A stretch of 54,674 nt of DNA from Nitratiruptor sp. (GTDB lineage Bacteria > Campylobacterota > Campylobacteria > Campylobacterales > Nitratiruptoraceae), in NCBI GenBank assembly GCA_009659925.1, contig PUXW01000005.1, forward strand, positions 1 to 54,674. The letters are read 5' to 3'. The position numbers were made by a program, and so were the translations under genes. Shown piece after piece: positions 12,305 through 24,567 of this stretch. The notes below the pieces were generated by a model. It made no database searches. It was not told where the DNA came from and saw nothing but the letters and a program-made list of their open reading frames with translations. Within the stretch, counting starts at the first letter, position 1; each line of letters starts with the position of its first letter.

Positions 12305-14086
12305 CTAAAGCTCTTTGAATCGGTAGTGGTTCCAGACCGCCTTGGCGTCTTGTGGGCTCAAGATCGATTCGAGCTCTTCCAGGGAGGCCTCGGCAATCGC
12401 TTCGAAGGTTCCAAAATAGTCCAGAAGGCGTCGCAGTTTGACCTTTCCGATCCCCGGGATTTGGAGGAGTTCGATCTGCATACTCTCCTTATGCCGCTTC
12501 CTGCGGTGTCTGGCAAGGGCGAAGCGGTGGGCCTCGTCCCGGAGATATTGGAGCAAGAGGAGTTTGGGATCCTTCCGTTCGAGAGAGAAGCTCCCCTGGG
12601 CCCCATAGATTCGATCCCAAGCTCCCCCTCGGGCCCGGCGGACCCGTCCTCCTTGGCGCTCTTTGGCTATGGCCAAAATGTCCGGTTCGATCCCTATTCG
12701 CCTCGTGATTTCAAAGGCGAGATGGTAGGCCTGCTCTCCGCCATCAATGAGCCACAAATCCCCCGGCTCCCCCCTGGCTCCATAGCGCTCGAGCAGTTCT
12801 CCCATCTGTTCCACCTCGCTCTTGCCGCTGAGAGTGTAGTGGCGGTATATGCGAAAGGCTCCCCCTTCATAGAGGAGGGCTGCTCCTACGGGAGCGCTTC
12901 CTTGGAGGTGGGAGACGTCGAAGACCACGATGCGCTGGGGGAGATGGGTGAGGCCAAAGTGGTCCTGGAGTTGAAAAAGGAGCTCCTCGTGAGGGTTGTG
13001 GCCATTGAGAAGTTCTCTGCCCTTTTGTCTCGCCAGCTCTACGAGTCCTTGGTGGTGGAAGGTGGGGGGAGTGATGGAGAGCGACTTTTGAAAGCGCTGT
13101 GCGAGGAGCTCTTCTAGTGCTTGACGATCTTCAAGTTGGAAGGGGAGGAGGATCCTCCCTGGCGGAGGATGGCCGCTCTCGTAGGTGGCAAGAATGAGAT
13201 GGCGGTAGATAGCCTCCAGATCCTCTTGGAGGGGGAAGAGGTGGTGGTCGATGGCGATGAGCTTACCGCCGCGTACTACGAGGCGCAGGGCCACCCCCTG
13301 TTGGTTGTGGGTGAGGACCATGAAGAGATCGAACTCTTCCAAAGCCTCTAGATCGATGGGGCTTTGGATCTGGATTCCCTCGATCTTGGCTATCCAGTCT
13401 CGCACCTTGGCGGCCTCTTCGAAGTGGAGCCCTTGGGCGAGATCTTCCATCTCTTGGCGCAACCGCTTTAAAAGGCTGCTCTTGTCGGAGAGCAGTTTCA
13501 AAGCCTCCTCCAGGATCCTCCTGTACTCCTCTTGGTCGATGCGTCCCTCACAGGGAGCCAGACAGCGGCCCATTTGGAAGAAGAGGCAGGCCCGTCGCTC
13601 CTGGAGGCAGTTGGATCGCTGTACCAGGGGGAAGAGGCGGTAGAGGGCCTGGAGGAGCTCCTTGGCCCCCGTGGGAAAGGGGCCAAAGTAGCGGGCCCGC
13701 TTGTGGGGCTGGAGGCGGCGTGTGATCTTGGGAGTTGGGAAGGGATCCTCCAGGTCGATCCAGATGTAAGGATAGGTCTTGTCGTCCCGAAGGAGGATGT
13801 TGTACTTGGGACCAAGCCCCTTGATGAGCTGGTTTTCGAGGAGGAGGGCCTCCTGTTCGTTGGCCAGAACCACATAGTCGATGTGCTTCGTCTCTTGGAC
13901 CATTTTGGCGATCCGGGGAGGGAGATTGGCGGCAGGTTTGAAGGGATCGAAGCGAAAGTAGCTGCGTACCCGCTTGGCCAGGTTCTTGGCCTTGCCCACA
14001 TACAAGAGCTTTCCCGCGGCGTCGTAGAAGCGGTAGACTCCAGGAAGACCTGGAAGGTGGGCAAGCGTACGCTCAAGAGTGGACAT
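12305..14086 (-). CDS. uvrC: Excinuclease ABC subunit C
   Basis: Nuclease subunit of nucleotide excision repair that makes the 3' and 5' incisions around DNA damage bound by UvrB. The protein has 593 residues: an N-terminal GIY-YIG domain (GVYRFYDAAGKLLYVGKAK), a Cys-containing stretch, a UvrB-binding UVR segment near 200-235, the RNase H-like endonuclease domain (VVFDVSHLQGSAPVGA) and C-terminal helix-hairpin-helix repeats (IPGIGKVKLRRLL). I chose ATG 14086, with AAGGAGG 12 bases upstream, over longer in-frame starts because homology begins there. Its start lies 14 bases inside the 3' end of the DUF721 gene. The phosphorelay operon begins 41 bases downstream. Confidence 0.96.
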   Translation of the reverse strand: MSTLERTLAHLPGLPGVYRFYDAAGKLLYVGKAKNLAKRVRSYFRFDPFKPAANLPPRIAKMVQETKHIDYVVLANEQEALLLENQLIKGLGPKYNILLRDDKTYPYIWIDLEDPFPTPKITRRLQPHKRARYFGPFPTGAKELLQALYRLFPLVQRSNCLQERRACLFFQMGRCLAPCEGRIDQEEYRRILEEALKLLSDKSSLLKRLRQEMEDLAQGLHFEEAAKVRDWIAKIEGIQIQSPIDLEALEEFDLFMVLTHNQQGVALRLVVRGGKLIAIDHHLFPLQEDLEAIYRHLILATYESGHPPPGRILLPFQLEDRQALEELLAQRFQKSLSITPPTFHHQGLVELARQKGRELLNGHNPHEELLFQLQDHFGLTHLPQRIVVFDVSHLQGSAPVGAALLYEGGAFRIYRHYTLSGKSEVEQMGELLERYGARGEPGDLWLIDGGEQAYHLAFEITRRIGIEPDILAIAKERQGGRVRRARGGAWDRIYGAQGSFSLERKDPKLLLLQYLRDEAHRFALARHRRKRHKESMQIELLQIPGIGKVKLRRLLDYFGTFEAIAEASLEELESILSPQDAKAVWNHYRFKEL

Positions 14087-14501
14087 TGCGCCGGATCGCC
14101 TCCTTGATCTTGGCGAAGAGCTCTGGAAATTCCTGGGACTCGCGAAACTCCCCGGTCGCTCGCTCCTTGTAGGAGTGGTGCCACTTGGGAGAGGGTTTGG
14201 GTTCCTGGACAAATTTGGCATAGGCCCGGATCTGGGTGATCTTGATATGGCGGCACGCCTTGTAGCGTTGAGCCAGAGTTGTTAAAATATCTTTTATCAG
14301 TTTTGTATTATAATTGACCTCCATCGCGAATCCGGGATGTTTGAGAACGAAGTAGAGGGTCTCTCCCCGCCGATAGAGGTAGAGGGTCATCTCCCGGAAA
14401 GATGGAGGTAAGAGGGAGAGGAGCTTGTTGAAGCACTTTTGTTCGAAAAAAGGGTAAGGGTTAGGGAAGAGATGGGTAAAAAGGGTCTTTGGATGTTTCA
14501 T
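14073..14501 (-). CDS. DUF721 (DciA-like) protein
   Basis: A 142-residue protein resembling the short DUF721 proteins of Campylobacterota, a family that includes DciA, the loader of the replicative helicase DnaB. Visible features are the opening KCFNKLLSLLPPSFRE helix and strands (TLYFVLKHPGFAMEVNYN) followed by a helix. The C-terminal third is Pro/Lys-rich and probably disordered. The start at 14501 is uncertain. A TATAAT on the minus strand (14508-14513, extended TGC) sits so close that the mRNA would have almost no leader. The gene overlaps uvrC by 14 bases and the divergent small lipoprotein gene by nine. The helicase-loading role is from the family, not from this sequence. Confidence 0.7.
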   Translation of the reverse strand: MKHPKTLFTHLFPNPYPFFEQKCFNKLLSLLPPSFREMTLYLYRRGETLYFVLKHPGFAMEVNYNTKLIKDILTTLAQRYKACRHIKITQIRAYAKFVQEPKPSPKWHHSYKERATGEFRESQEFPELFAKIKEAIRRNVHS

Positions 14502-14591
14502 ATCGTAATTATAGCACTTTTGGTGGCTGGGTGCGGTTACAAAGCCGATCCCTATTACGAGCCCTCCCAGTTTACGAAGGCCTCCCGGTGA
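14493..14591 (+). CDS. 32-residue lipoprotein, LptM-like, translationally coupled to nadB
   Basis: ATG 14493 opens a 32-codon frame with a compact lipoprotein signal: a hydrophobic stretch (FHIVIIALLVAG), lipobox VAGC with Cys14, then GYKADPYYEPSQFTKASR and stop. The mature tail has the CGxK...P-Y pattern of LptM (YifL), the small lipoprotein known in Enterobacteria to help LptD form its correct disulfides. The TGA stop overlaps the nadB GTG start as GTGA (14588-14591), a typical coupling arrangement. The Shine-Dalgarno sequence is weak. The ATG also overlaps the divergent DUF721 start codon region. No other member is visible here to confirm conservation. Confidence 0.6.
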   Translation: MFHIVIIALLVAGCGYKADPYYEPSQFTKASR

Positions 14592-16024
14592 TCTACGATT
14601 ACCTCATCGTCGGTGCTGGAGTGGCCGGTTTGTATGCAAGTCTCCATATTCCCAAGGGCTGCTCCACCCTCATCCTCTCCAAAGATCCAATCTGGGAGTG
14701 CAATACCTTCTATGCCCAGGGGGGAATTAGCCGGGCCGTGGACGAGGAGGATATTCCCCTCCACATTGCCGATACCATTCGGGCCGGGGCTGGCCTTTGC
14801 AATGTGGAGGCGGTAGAGATTCTCGCCCGTAACTCCATTGAGGTCGTGGACGACCTTATCCGCCGTGGCTTCCAGTTCGATCGGGATGAGGCGGGCCGTC
14901 TCCTCTTCACCCAAGAGGCGGCCCATTCCCGTCCCCGAATCCTTCATGCTGGTGGGGATGCAACGGGACGGGAGCTCCATCGCTTCCTTTTGAGCCAGAC
15001 CGGAGCCCAACTCCTCGAAGGGGTTCTGGTCGTCGACCTTCTGGTGGAAGGGGAGCGCTGTTACGGGGTAACCGTCCAGCATGGCCGGCAGCGCACCAAC
15101 ATCTACGCCAAGACCATCCTCCTGGCCTCCGGGGGCATTGGCTCCCTCTACGAATACCATACCAACTCCAAGAAGATCAGTGCCGATATCCATGGGTTGG
15201 CTATTCTCCGGGGCCTACCCCTCAAAGATATGGAGTTCACCCAGTTCCACCCAACCGTCTTCGTTCACAACAAAAGGGCCCGGAAGTATTTGCTCACCGA
15301 AGCCCTTCGAGGCGAAGGGGCAACCGTCGTAGACGAGACGGGGCGCCGCTTCCTCTTCGACTACGATCCCCAGGGAGAGCTGGCTCCCCGGGACATCGTG
15401 GCCCGGGCCATCTTTCGCCACCAACAGGCTGGCCATCGGGTCTACCTCTCCTTCGAGCGATTCAGCGAAGCCTTTTTCAAACGCCGTTTCCCCACGATCT
15501 CCATGATCTTTCGCAATCTCGGCTTCAATGTCCCCTACGACCAGGTTCCCATCTCTCCGGCTTTTCACTTCATGATGGGAGGGATTGAGGTCGATACCAA
15601 CTCCCGGGTCAAGGGATTCGAGAATCTCTATGCCATCGGTGAGGTGGCTTGTACCGGGGTCCATGGGGCCAACCGCCTCGCTTCCAACTCCCTCCTGGAG
15701 GGACTGGTCTTTTCCAAACGGGCCGTCGAGGCAAGTCTGGCCTCTCCTAGCAAGGGTCGGGAGCTCTCCTTTCCCGTCCTCGGCGATGACCTGGTCAAGG
15801 AAGGGGATCAAGAGGCCAAACAGCACCTTCGGGAGACGATGTGGCACAAGGTGGGGATCATCCGGCGACGCCAGGAACTCCAGGAGGCCCGGGAACTGGT
15901 GGAGGGGATGCTCGATCGCCCCATCGGCCACCTCTTGCGGCTTCGAGCCCTCACGGCCCGATCCATCATCGATGGGGCCCTGGCCAGGCGGGAGTCGATC
16001 GGGGCTCACTACATCGAAGATTAA
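14588..16024 (+). CDS. nadB: L-aspartate oxidase
   Basis: FAD enzyme that oxidises L-aspartate to iminoaspartate, the first step of NAD synthesis with NadA. The 478 residues begin with the FAD-binding fold (YLIVGAGVAGLYAS), followed by the family segments NTFYAQGGIS, a HxxGDATGRE active-site region, EFTQFHPT, FHFMMGGIEVD and GVHGANRLASNSLLE. I chose GTG 14588 because GAAGG lies seven bases upstream and the Rossmann strand starts immediately; longer starts add unrelated sequence. The start overlaps the stop of the small lipoprotein by four bases. nadA and nadC are not in the window. Confidence 0.95.
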   Translation: MIYDYLIVGAGVAGLYASLHIPKGCSTLILSKDPIWECNTFYAQGGISRAVDEEDIPLHIADTIRAGAGLCNVEAVEILARNSIEVVDDLIRRGFQFDRDEAGRLLFTQEAAHSRPRILHAGGDATGRELHRFLLSQTGAQLLEGVLVVDLLVEGERCYGVTVQHGRQRTNIYAKTILLASGGIGSLYEYHTNSKKISADIHGLAILRGLPLKDMEFTQFHPTVFVHNKRARKYLLTEALRGEGATVVDETGRRFLFDYDPQGELAPRDIVARAIFRHQQAGHRVYLSFERFSEAFFKRRFPTISMIFRNLGFNVPYDQVPISPAFHFMMGGIEVDTNSRVKGFENLYAIGEVACTGVHGANRLASNSLLEGLVFSKRAVEASLASPSKGRELSFPVLGDDLVKEGDQEAKQHLRETMWHKVGIIRRRQELQEARELVEGMLDRPIGHLLRLRALTARSIIDGALARRESIGAHYIED

Positions 16025-19766: not shown

Positions 19767-21047
19767 ATGCGCGTTTTGATCGTGGGGAGTGGGGGTCGAG
19801 AGTATGCCATTGGACGGGCACTCCATCAAGACCCTGCCGTCACCCAGCTCTATTTTGCTCCAGGTAATGGAGGGACCCTCGCCCTTGGGAAGAATGTGGA
19901 TATTCCCGACTACGAGGAGCTTGCCCAATTCGCCAAAGATGAGGGGATCGATCTGACGATTGTCGGTCCAGAAGGGCCTTTGGTCCAGGGGATCACCGAT
20001 ATCTTCAGGAAGCACGGTCTCCTCATCTTTGGCCCCTCCCAGAAGGCGGCCCTCCTGGAAGGCTCCAAAATCTACATGAAAAACTTCTTGCGCAAGTATG
20101 GCATCCCCACCGCCCGCTATATCGAGACCGATGTCATGGAGGAGGCGGCCGAGTTCATCGACGAGCTGGAGCCCCCCATTGTCGTCAAGGCCGATGGTCT
20201 GTGTGCCGGCAAGGGGGTGATCATCGCCAAGACCAGAGAGGAGGCCAAAGAGGTGGCCGCCCAAATGCTCTCTGGAGCGGCCTTCGGTCCGGCTGGAGAG
20301 CGTATCGTTGTAGAGGAGTTCCTCGATGGCTATGAACTAAGCGTTTTCGCCGTCAGCGATGGGGAGCGTTACATCCTCTTCCCGGCGGCTCAGGATCACA
20401 AGCGACTTTTGGATGGGGATGAAGGGCCCAATACAGGGGGGATGGGGGCCTACGCCCCGACCCCTTTGATCGACGAGGAGCTCTATCGCAAGATCGAAGA
20501 GCGCATCATCGCCCCGACCATCGAGGGGATGCGGGCTGAGGGAACCCCCTTTGAAGGGGTCCTCTTCGCCGGGCTCATGATTGTCGATCGGGAGCCTTAC
20601 GTCCTGGAGTTCAACGTCCGATTCGGCGATCCGGAGTGTGAGGTCCTCATGCCTTTGCTGGAGAGCTCCCCCAGCGAACTCTTCCTCAAGGCAGCCCGGA
20701 GGGAGCTGGACCAGTTGGAGGTAAAATTTGGGAAGCGCTATGCGGTCGGTGTGGTTTTGGCCAGTGAGAACTACCCCTACGGCAAGAGCAAGCCGAGTGA
20801 GATCATTATCGACGAGATCGTCCACAAAGAGTTGGCCGAGCATGCCCACATCTGCTTTGCTGGAGTGAGTTTGATCGAGGGAAAACTCTTCGCCACCGGT
20901 GGGCGGGTTCTCGTTTGCGTCGGTGTGGGGGAGAGCCTCAAGGAGGCCAGGGATTACGCCTACATGCTCACTGGACAGATCCACTTCGCCGGAAAGAAGT
21001 TTCGCAGCGATATAGCCTATCAGGCGCTGCGAGAGGACAATGGGTAG
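19767..21047 (+). CDS. purD: Phosphoribosylamine-glycine ligase (GAR synthetase)
   Basis: Purine synthesis enzyme joining glycine to phosphoribosylamine with ATP. The 426-residue ATP-grasp protein shows the N-terminal fold LIVGSGGREYAIGRAL, APGNGGT, the VVKADGLCAGKGVI ATP-binding strand and loop, and EFNVRFGDPECEVLMPLL near the metal site. I chose ATG 19767 (AAAAGGG upstream) since homology starts at MRVLIVG. It follows the 6S-like RNA by 35 bases and may be partly read through from it. The 3' end overlaps lptD by eight bases. Confidence 0.96.
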   Translation: MRVLIVGSGGREYAIGRALHQDPAVTQLYFAPGNGGTLALGKNVDIPDYEELAQFAKDEGIDLTIVGPEGPLVQGITDIFRKHGLLIFGPSQKAALLEGSKIYMKNFLRKYGIPTARYIETDVMEEAAEFIDELEPPIVVKADGLCAGKGVIIAKTREEAKEVAAQMLSGAAFGPAGERIVVEEFLDGYELSVFAVSDGERYILFPAAQDHKRLLDGDEGPNTGGMGAYAPTPLIDEELYRKIEERIIAPTIEGMRAEGTPFEGVLFAGLMIVDREPYVLEFNVRFGDPECEVLMPLLESSPSELFLKAARRELDQLEVKFGKRYAVGVVLASENYPYGKSKPSEIIIDEIVHKELAEHAHICFAGVSLIEGKLFATGGRVLVCVGVGESLKEARDYAYMLTGQIHFAGKKFRSDIAYQALREDNG

Positions 21048-23097
21048 AGTACTTGCCCTCCTCTTCCTTGGGACATGGCTCCTTGCTCAGGAGCTGGTGC
21101 AAATCCATGGGGAGCTCATCGAGATCGATCCCTCCAAGATCCGCTTGAAAGCCCCTTTCACCCTCGATTATAGCGGCTACCACCTCGAAGCAGACCGGGC
21201 CCACTACGACCAGAATACCTCCCAACTGCGCCTCTTCGGTTCTCTGGAGCTTCTCGATGGCAATGGATCGGCTTTCCATGCCCACTCAGGTAGTTTCGAC
21301 TTGACCAGGAAGCGTTTCCGGCTGGATCGCTTTTTTTTAAGCCAGATGCCCTCCAAGCTCTGGAGCCAGGGGATCCGCTTGGATGGGAACGAAAGCCGGC
21401 TCTCTCTGGCCAAGGCCTTCCTCTCCAGCTGTCAGGTGGGTTGTAGCGACTGGCGGCTCTACTTTGGCATGGGGGAATACGATCGAAAGCGGGAGTGGGT
21501 CAACCTCTACAACGTCGCCTTTTATATCGGGGAGATTCCCATCTTCTACCTCCCCTACATCGGCTTTTCCACCATTACAAGGCGCCATACCGGTCTCTTG
21601 CGCCCAACCATTGGCCTCTCCAATAGAGAGGGGCTGGTCTATATCCAACCCTTCTTCTACGCCCCTACCAACTGGTGGGATCTTGAACTCGATCCCCAGA
21701 TTCGAACCAAGCGGGGGGCCGGTCTGTATGGGACCTTTCGCTTCGTCGATTCACCCAACTCCTATGGGGAGATCCGGACCGGTTTTTTCAAGGAGCGGGA
21801 GCGCTACCGGGAGGACCATGGCATTCGTCACGACAAACACTACGGGCTTGAGCTCTATTACCGCCGCCGGGGGTTGCTGGGGGATCAGGAGGAGGATGGG
21901 ATCTACCTCGATAGCAAGAGCTACAACGATGTAGACTACTTCTACCTCCAGAAGCACTCGCTTCTCTCCAACATTAGCTCCATCATCATTTCCCGGCTCA
22001 ACTACTTCTTCCAGCAGGGGCGCAACTACTTTGGACTCTACGCCAAATATTTCAAGGATAACCGTAAGCTCGACAATGACGATACCCTCCAGATCCTCCC
22101 AGCCCTCCAGTACCACCGCTTCATCCAGTCGGTTTTGAGCCACAACATCTCCTACCTGGTCAACGCCGAGGTCTACCACTACACCCGCAAAGAGGGGCTC
22201 AATGCCATCGAATACCGTTTCGATATGCCCATTCGTATCTATACCGCCCTCTTCGACGACCGCCTCGGCCTCATGTTCAGCGAGAATCTCAACGCCCGGT
22301 ATGCCGATTACAACTTCGTCGACAAGAACCTCAACAAGAAGTGGAAGAACTACTACGCCTATCGCAACTCCCACCAGATCTCCATCTATAGTGATCTCGT
22401 GCGCCCCTACCCCACCTTCCTCCACACCCTCCATCTCGATGCGACCCTCAATATCCCCAGCCTGGAGCGGGAAGGGGGAGATCGGGCGCCATTCATCGAT
22501 GCTGCCAGTAACGAGAAGAGCCTCTACTTGACCCTTAAACACTACTTCTACGATAAACAGGGGCGAGAGCGGTTCTACCATCGACTCACCCAGCCCTTCA
22601 TCTACGACTACCCCCACAAGGCCAAAGAGCTGGAGAATGAATTTGGCTTCATGGTTGGGGGTTGGGAGGTGAATCTCGATACCTTCTACTCCCACCAGGC
22701 GAGTAAACTGGTAGCCATCGCCACCCAGCTCCACTACCAGGACGATGAGGACAACCTCTACCTCTCCCACTTCTACAAGGACCGCCTCTATGGCCAGCGG
22801 GATTCCAACTACCTGCGCTTCGATTACAGCCGCACTTTATCCAAACGCAACCGACTATTTGCTACAATAGATTATGACTTCGTCGACGAGCGGACGAAGA
22901 GTTGGAGTCTCGGTTGGGAGCACCGCTCCCAGTGCTGGGCCTATACCATCAGTTACAAGCAGGATGTGATCCCCGTCCTCACATCGACGGGGAGCAACTC
23001 CTACAACAACAATGTGATCTATTTTCGTATCGAGCTCTATCCCCTGGGCGGGATAGCTCGGTCCATTTCTCAAAGCAATGAGCAAAGGACATTCTAG
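21040..23097 (+). CDS. lptD: LPS-assembly protein LptD
   Basis: Outer-membrane barrel that places lipopolysaccharide (or lipooligosaccharide) in the outer leaflet. The 685 residues have a signal peptide (1-16), an OstA/LptA-like jellyroll (about 20-130) and a long beta-barrel domain. HTGLLRPTIGLSNREG and the TNWWDLELDPQ segment are family hallmarks. Three Cys are seen: 131 and 135 (CQVGC) at the domain boundary and 632 in the barrel, so at least one long-range disulfide is possible. E. coli has four. GAGAGG precedes the ATG. It overlaps purD by eight bases and is followed at three bases by the MCE protein gene. Confidence 0.92.
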   Translation: MGRVLALLFLGTWLLAQELVQIHGELIEIDPSKIRLKAPFTLDYSGYHLEADRAHYDQNTSQLRLFGSLELLDGNGSAFHAHSGSFDLTRKRFRLDRFFLSQMPSKLWSQGIRLDGNESRLSLAKAFLSSCQVGCSDWRLYFGMGEYDRKREWVNLYNVAFYIGEIPIFYLPYIGFSTITRRHTGLLRPTIGLSNREGLVYIQPFFYAPTNWWDLELDPQIRTKRGAGLYGTFRFVDSPNSYGEIRTGFFKERERYREDHGIRHDKHYGLELYYRRRGLLGDQEEDGIYLDSKSYNDVDYFYLQKHSLLSNISSIIISRLNYFFQQGRNYFGLYAKYFKDNRKLDNDDTLQILPALQYHRFIQSVLSHNISYLVNAEVYHYTRKEGLNAIEYRFDMPIRIYTALFDDRLGLMFSENLNARYADYNFVDKNLNKKWKNYYAYRNSHQISIYSDLVRPYPTFLHTLHLDATLNIPSLEREGGDRAPFIDAASNEKSLYLTLKHYFYDKQGRERFYHRLTQPFIYDYPHKAKELENEFGFMVGGWEVNLDTFYSHQASKLVAIATQLHYQDDEDNLYLSHFYKDRLYGQRDSNYLRFDYSRTLSKRNRLFATIDYDFVDERTKSWSLGWEHRSQCWAYTISYKQDVIPVLTSTGSNSYNNNVIYFRIELYPLGGIARSISQSNEQRTF

Positions 23098-23100
23098 ACG

Positions 23101-24567
23101 ATGAAGACCGAAGCCAAGGTAGGACTCTTCGTCGCCCTCGGCCTCATCTTCCTCTTCTTGCTCACAACCCAAGTGAACCGATTTGCTCACATGGGCAAGA
23201 AGGGGTATGAGATCTATGCCCTCTTGGAGGATGCTTCCGGCCTTGAGCGCAACGCCAAGGTCAAGATCAAAGGGGTTGAGGTTGGCTTCGTCAAGGATAT
23301 CGCGCTGGCTGGACGCAAGGTCAAGGTGACCCTCTTCGTCTACGATGGCGTCAAGATCCCCAAGGACTCCGTCGTCACCCTGGAGCAGGAGAGCCTCTTG
23401 GGGACCAAGTATCTTGCCATCGAACCGGGAAGCTCCCAAGCCTTCCTGGCTCCAGGAGAGAGCCTTACCAAGGAGCGTATCTTCGTCTCCTTCGACGAGA
23501 CCAGTACCACCATCAACGAAGCGGCCAAGGAGTTTCGCGCCTTCATCGCCGAGTTACGCCAATCTTTAAAGGGGGAGAGCGGTGAGGATTTGAAGAGGAG
23601 CATTGCCAACTTGCAAAAGATCACCCAGCACCTCAAAGAGCTTATCGAAGAGAACCGGGCCAACATCAACCAATCCATCGAAAACATTCGCCAGATGGGG
23701 CTCAAACTCAGCGAAGCCGGGGAGAAGTTTGGGCGTATGAGTGACCAGTTCGCCTACACGGCCCAGCAGATCAACAAGGAGCTTCCCAAGATCTTGCGCC
23801 GGATCGATGCCATTACCCTCTACTTGCAAAATACCGGCAAGGATCTCAACCAGAAGCTCCCCAAAGTTTTGGATCGCTTCGCCAAGATCGAGGAGGAGAT
23901 CGAGGGGGTTATCAAGGAGAATCGCAAACCCCTCAACCAAACCCTCCTTTCTGCCAACAAGTTCTTCCAAAAAGGGGGGGACTCCTTCCAGAAGCTGGAT
24001 CAATTCTTCGAAGCGATGGGTAAGAGCCAGATCGAGCTCCAGTTTCAAGGGGATTACATGAGCAAGGACGACTATGTCAAGAGCAGGGTCGCCCTCAACT
24101 ACATCCCCTCCCCCAACAAGTACTACATGCTCGAGGTGGTCTCCCGTCAAGACTACTCCCGCCGCGACAAAGAGGGCAATCCGATTCTCCCCCAAAAGCA
24201 CGAGGAGTCCCAATTCCTCGTTTCGGCGATGTATGGCCGCCGCTACGGGGATTGGCGCTTTCGTCTAGGACTTATCGAAAACACCGGAGGGGTCGGCTTG
24301 GACTACTATTTTCACAAGGATCGCGGGAAGGTGCGGGCCGATCTGTACGACTTTGATGCTGTCAACGATGTCCGCGGGGATCGGGCCCACCTCGACTTGA
24401 GTCTGCGCTACCGATTCCTCAAGCACCTGGATACCTATGTCGGAGTCGACAACGCCCTCAATCCCAAAGCCCGGAACTACACCTTCGGCATCGGACTCGA
24501 CTTTATCGACCAAGACATGAAATATCTTCTTGGCACCGTGAGCGGGGCTGGTAGTTATCTTCGATGA
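23101..24567 (+). CDS. MCE/MlaD-family lipid transport protein with beta-rich C-terminus
   Basis: A single N-terminal membrane helix (VGLFVALGLIFLFLLTT, about 7-23) anchors the protein in the inner membrane. An MCE domain follows (about 35-120; NAKVKIKGVEVGFVKDI, GTKYLAIEPG). Residues about 130-320 are long amphipathic helices, as in the coiled tail of PqiB-type MCE proteins. The last 160 residues (about 325-488) alternate like beta strands with many aromatic residues (YYMLEVVSRQDY, FGIGLDFI) and resemble membrane-barrel sequence. MCE proteins carry phospholipids between membranes. The start lies three bases after lptD. A matching permease and ATPase are not in the window. Confidence 0.85.
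   Translation: MKTEAKVGLFVALGLIFLFLLTTQVNRFAHMGKKGYEIYALLEDASGLERNAKVKIKGVEVGFVKDIALAGRKVKVTLFVYDGVKIPKDSVVTLEQESLLGTKYLAIEPGSSQAFLAPGESLTKERIFVSFDETSTTINEAAKEFRAFIAELRQSLKGESGEDLKRSIANLQKITQHLKELIEENRANINQSIENIRQMGLKLSEAGEKFGRMSDQFAYTAQQINKELPKILRRIDAITLYLQNTGKDLNQKLPKVLDRFAKIEEEIEGVIKENRKPLNQTLLSANKFFQKGGDSFQKLDQFFEAMGKSQIELQFQGDYMSKDDYVKSRVALNYIPSPNKYYMLEVVSRQDYSRRDKEGNPILPQKHEESQFLVSAMYGRRYGDWRFRLGLIENTGGVGLDYYFHKDRGKVRADLYDFDAVNDVRGDRAHLDLSLRYRFLKHLDTYVGVDNALNPKARNYTFGIGLDFIDQDMKYLLGTVSGAGSYLR

Follow-up and report, generated by a model that had tools for sequence, protein, structure and literature searches.

The window analysed here is a stretch of 54,674 nucleotides from Nitratiruptor sp. 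(contig PUXW01000005.1), whose plus strand carries at 14472-14591 the coding sequence of an LptM-like lipoprotein of 39 amino acids, MGKKGLWMFHIVIIALLVAGCGYKADPYYEPSQFTKASR. Its type II signal peptide, MGKKGLWMFHIVIIALLVAG, is encoded at 14472-14531 and leads into the lipobox VAGC, cut before the Cys. The mature lipoprotein, CGYKADPYYEPSQFTKASR, follows at 14532-14588, as read from the sequence and from column statistics of 136 sequences. The lipobox Cys is Cys21 of the 39-residue protein (codon at 14532-14534) and is predicted to be lipidated. An AGGGA that resembles a ribosome binding site lies at 14463-14467 on the plus strand, 5′ of the ATG at 14472. A preliminary description of this DNA had recognized the frame, and its VAGC lipobox and CGYK...YY pattern are all present, but it placed the start at ATG 14493, giving 32 residues with the Cys at position 14. 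That start was rejected, since Met8 of the 39-residue protein (the Met at 14493) is replaced by I, L, V, F, A, or T in relatives. The relatives have basic residues ahead of the hydrophobic stretch and start at the equivalent of the in-frame ATG at 14472, so that the gene spans 14472-14591. A promoter scan of the plus strand gave a single weak sigma-70-like site at 14282-14311, and no RNA family in Rfam was matched at the locus.

Two genes overlap this ORF. Downstream on the plus strand, nadB (L-aspartate oxidase, 14588-16024) begins with a GTG at 14588 that overlaps the lipoprotein stop codon TGA (14589-14591), forming the GTGA reported earlier. nadB is the next downstream gene in most relatives, with 52-78% identity, but elsewhere, as in Campylobacter and Helicobacter, its place is taken by guaA, nhaD, an aminotransferase-murC pair or another gene (neighbours were named from their sequences). 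The coupling to nadB proposed in the preliminary description is thus one of several downstream arrangements. Because the peptide persists whichever gene lies downstream, nadB does not belong to the system and was rejected as its defining context. The constant setting is on the other side, where the lipoprotein gene diverges from a DciA-like gene, usually followed by uvrC. In the window, this DciA-like gene, an orthologue of hp0820/cj1247c conserved in nearly all loci, lies at 14073-14501 on the minus strand and shares 30 bp with the lipoprotein ORF in a head-to-head overlap. PF05258 (DciA) matches five of nine DciA-like members; the best E value, 2.4e-7, belongs to a relative, and the window member scores 18.1 bits, below the gathering cut-off of 24. 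The DciA-like profile found no relevant match in the PDB. The DciA-like (DUF721) gene beside uvrC is a putative replicative helicase loader, and PF05258 genes adjoining uvrC have been reported in Epsilonproteobacteria (PMC5109545).

The protein is conserved well beyond the genus. When the 39-residue sequence was searched against whole genomes, a match at E<=10 was obtained in 40 of 41 related genomes, and E values within the same family were mostly between 1e-14 and 4e-7 (lowest 1.5e-14). A profile built from 26 members matched all 298 Campylobacterota genomes at E<=1, a set whose weakest matches include other lipoproteins, and about 269 of them at E<=1e-5 (counted from the table). Among 30 selected genomes that were inspected closely, many of them with weak profile matches, the same locus was found in most, and a Helicobacter-type group carries ...QACGYKAPPFN there. 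For a few genomes, the best profile match is another lipoprotein, LptE-like in G200 and unrelated in G295; in G200 (L248), the LptM-like gene itself may be missing or diverged. Named records with the family include Nitratiruptor, Sulfurimonas, Sulfuricurvum, Sulfurovum, Aliarcobacter, and Helicobacter. The family is thus nearly, though perhaps not fully, universal among the Campylobacterota genomes examined, relatives of Helicobacter and Campylobacter among them. No LptM relatives were found in the viral contigs searched.

Conservation is concentrated in the first nine mature residues, counted from the acylated Cys, which read C-G-[YHF]-K-x-x-P-[YFV]-Y; the rest is variable. In 136 retrieved members, the Cys is present in all and the Gly in 99%, though the retrieval pattern itself demanded Cys and Gly or Ala. 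The codons behind these residues are not fixed. TGT and TGC encode the mature Cys in a ratio of 77:59, and the mature part uses all four Gly codons and all four Pro codons. With family E values of this order, phylum-wide profile matches and free synonymous sites, the ORF is confirmed as a real, usually unannotated lipoprotein gene, as had been suggested. The frame and its Cys, for which conservation upstream of nadB in relatives had been proposed as the check, are indeed conserved there. The earlier statement that automatic annotation misses the gene is usually right, but the Campylobacter version had been detected before as CJsORF25, an ORF of 69 amino acids in the guaA 5′UTR that was found by Ribo-seq and detected in most Campylobacter species (PMC11955535). 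In a Campylobacter-type genome (L234), the ORF that separates guaA from the DciA-like gene also has 69 amino acids by our own count. From this position and length, we infer that CJsORF25 is the Campylobacter member of the LptM-like family; it was published without a function or a link to LptM (PMC11955535). The gene is therefore partly known already, and NCBIfam would name a few members LptM.

Several tests point to LptM (YifL of E. coli) as the nearest known family. The NCBIfam model NF047847 was the most-matched family, found by 44 of 52 members with a best E value of 1.4e-7, and two full-length relatives, at 29.6 and 28.3 bits, lie above its curated cut-off of 27.7 bits. The window protein scores 22.5 bits, below this equivalog cut-off. 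LptM_cons (PF13627) was likewise the most-matched Pfam family (22 of 26 members); here the window protein reaches 18.3 bits and the best of ten relatives 22.8 bits, against a gathering cut-off of 27.3. In the genome of the window, the LptM model places this ORF on top, at 21.4 bits, followed by a match of 16.7 bits, and genome-wide searches of 61 genomes with the model gave nothing above the cut-off. In the reverse direction, LptM was the best match of the family profile in the whole Proteus mirabilis chromosome (E of 0.010 vs. 0.25 for the next), and a trimmed profile, A2, found no match in the Aeromonas caviae chromosome. Profile-profile comparison by hhalign with four LptM sequences, all of gamma type, the only type found in a plasmid collection, gave a probability of 89.8 over 15 columns and an E value of 1.8e-6 that is valid for one comparison. 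Profile A1 found two LptM chains as its top matches in the PDB, though with weak E values of 0.22 and 0.26.

The two families are also alike in design. Both are small lipoproteins with a GCG-x-K lipobox, a short conserved mature N-terminus and a variable tail, both have the Cys-Gly mature start that LptM membership requires, and LptD, the substrate of LptM, is encoded in the same Campylobacterota genomes. When residues 20-29 of E. coli LptM (CGLKGPLYFP) are laid against the family, there is agreement at C, G, K, and the aromatic positions, but not at G24, P25, and L26. The motif is CGLKGPLYFPP in E. coli and CGYKxxPYY in Campylobacterota, where the tail is shorter and an invariant Pro stands at mature position 7 in place of Leu. 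The cyaY-lptM-dapF neighbourhood of E. coli was not found in Campylobacterota; the gene lies instead between the uvrC and dciA-like pair and nadB, guaA, nhaD or other genes. The earlier proposal of an LptM relative is supported by the NCBIfam and Pfam rankings, the profile-profile comparison and the Proteus match, but not by the scores of the window member, which stay below both cut-offs. These scores count against full membership in LptM, as do the higher scores of other lipoproteins in some genomes, the negative Aeromonas search, the PDB ranking with A2, the register of the Pro and the difference in locus, and "LptM-like" is the right name.

A further link to the LPS translocon may come from LptE. 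In these genomes, mature LptE (PF04390) begins with CGYKP and so shares its N-terminus with the LptM-like protein, but LptE has a folded domain of about 150 residues and is unrelated to it past the first residues. In 8 of 21 genomes (G000, G001, G003, G005, G009, G011, G024, and G026), coded GCG[YH]K is limited to LptE and the LptM-like protein, counting Gly and excluding Ala before the Cys. In G000, the GCGYK coding pattern matches just two places, lptE (L258) at C5:69518-69532 and the window at 14529-14543. The remaining genomes show additional matches, and the count is limited by the incompleteness of the assemblies. CGYK may have a docking or sorting role common to LptE and the LptM-like protein.

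On the other hand, the LptM score might arise from a generic lipobox followed by Gly, the protein being a short conserved lipoprotein that serves the envelope in some unrelated way. In part, the LptM model detects lipoboxes as such: other lipoproteins score 16-23 bits with it, and in several Campylobacter and Helicobacter-type genomes it ranks one of them above the family member. In addition, TssJ/VasD appear alongside the family in the PDB with profile A2 and rank above LptM. However, the stronger family matches extend to position 25-31 of the LptM model, whereas the competing lipoproteins mostly stop near 21-25. LptM being the best match in Proteus, the two members above the equivalog cut-off and the sharing of GCGYK with LptE alone in eight genomes also speak against an unrelated function, which we regard as rather unlikely but a serious competitor.

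The overlap with the DciA-like gene constrains the signal peptide. On the minus strand, an extended -10 box, TGCTATAAT (14508-14516), of the form TGC-TATAAT lies exactly 6 nt before the ATG of the DciA-like gene (14499-14501), which starts at 14501. In 149 retrieved sequences, which include some off-target matches, TATAAT at this fixed spacing is matched at all six positions in 82, at five in 33 and at four in 10, that is, at four or more in 125 of 149. The DciA-like mRNA in the window is accordingly predicted to be leaderless. This spacing agrees with the published prediction that cj1247c/hp0820 is the one gene leaderless in all species having it (PMC3847290). In the passages of this paper that were consulted, no overlap with a lipoprotein ORF is mentioned. 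The DciA-like gene is a separate gene, with its antisense start codon and -10 box inside the lipoprotein ORF, and these fix several residues of the signal peptide. The residues FH..II overlap them, and this restricts their codons to TTYCAT and ATT-NTA: all 121 His codons of FH are CAT, 111 of 121 codons for the first Ile of II are ATT (94 of 190 for Ile elsewhere), and the codon after this Ile always ends in TA. A signal peptide shaped by the promoter and start of a putative replication gene on the opposite strand clearly illustrates constraint from both strands, which may bias the scores of profiles and the choice of start codons.

One might picture the ORF as a leader whose translation is coupled to nadB or controls it, with a peptide that is itself useless. 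The GTGA or ATGA overlap with nadB in many relatives would suit such a leader, but the peptide is kept where the downstream gene becomes guaA, nhaD, an aminotransferase gene or another, and the mature part conserves amino acids and not codons, which makes this very improbable. That there is no protein function at all, conservation being that of the antisense dciA-like promoter and start codon, fits the held codons of FH and II but can practically be dismissed, and is already refuted for the mature region, because CGYK..P.Y lies outside the antisense element and its synonymous sites are free, Sulfuricurvum-type loci that lack the divergent gene lose FH..II but retain GCGYKxPPxY, and the Campylobacter version is translated (PMC11955535). 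Since its codons are free and its motif persists without the divergent gene, the mature part is conserved for the sake of the protein.

The proposed partner, lptD, lies at 21040-23097 on the plus strand, 6.45 kb downstream, close to the 6.5 kb given in the preliminary description; it was identified by LptD matches in the PDB and by aligning it with relatives and with LptD of E. coli. In the window LptD, Cys131 corresponds to C173 of E. coli and Cys632 to C725, and Cys135 is also present. In LptD of relatives, the equivalents of C173 and C725 are kept wherever the alignment covers them, those of P231 and P246 are kept with one exception, and no equivalents of C31 or C724 were found. E. coli LptD has two inter-domain cysteine pairs, whereas Campylobacterota LptD has one conserved pair. 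LptD E275 was considered as a conserved salt-bridge partner of LptM K23 and rejected, as E275 is not conserved in the alignment.

In E. coli, LptD maturation is a rearrangement between two disulfides (PMC10567701). As Campylobacterota LptD keeps a single conserved pair, such a rearrangement cannot be the general role, whereas occupancy of the gate can. The earlier suggestion of the same kind of helper for LptD maturation is therefore not simply transferable in the disulfide sense, and a structural task at the gate of LptD seems likelier than disulfide shuffling. Residues 20-29 of E. coli LptM were resolved lining the LptD gate and hinge; LptM can be co-purified with the translocon when residues 44-67 are removed, and largely not when residues 22-30 are missing (PMC12644819). 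The sole conserved stretch of the Campylobacterota family coincides with these residues 20-29. As far as sequence comparison can tell, the protein is probably a short outer-membrane lipoprotein that is distantly related or functionally equivalent to LptM. It would be lipidated and delivered by Lol to the outer membrane, where its first mature residues would insert at the hinge between the beta-taco and barrel of LptD beside the lateral gate, as in E. coli LptM. While the LptD-LptE translocon is being assembled or is releasing LPS, this insertion would stabilize it, and the conserved task would be to occupy and steady the gate, not to rearrange disulfides.

LptM-like genes were reported to be virtually absent outside Proteobacteria (PMC10567701), and the literature searched yielded no paper that connects LptM to Campylobacter or Helicobacter. 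A broader reading, which we offer tentatively and with somewhat less than even confidence, is that LptM is not limited to Proteobacteria and would be a near-universal additional subunit of the Campylobacterota translocon, with gate occupancy as its ancestral role and CGYK in common with LptE. If this is true, the known composition of the LPS translocon extends to another phylum, including Helicobacter and Campylobacter, and gate binding by LptM is separated from disulfide rearrangement, as LptD there has one conserved pair. A testable function is also offered for CJsORF25, a translated, uncharacterised small protein.

Two minor observations concern lptD. In most of the genus of the window, LptD has an extra Cys four residues past the C173 equivalent (CxxxC, 21430-21444 in the window). 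This Cys is missing from several other families, which have the pair alone, and it may allow an alternative disulfide. Directly 3′ of lptD, at 23101-24567, the window encodes a protein that was judged by eye to be MCE/MlaD-like.
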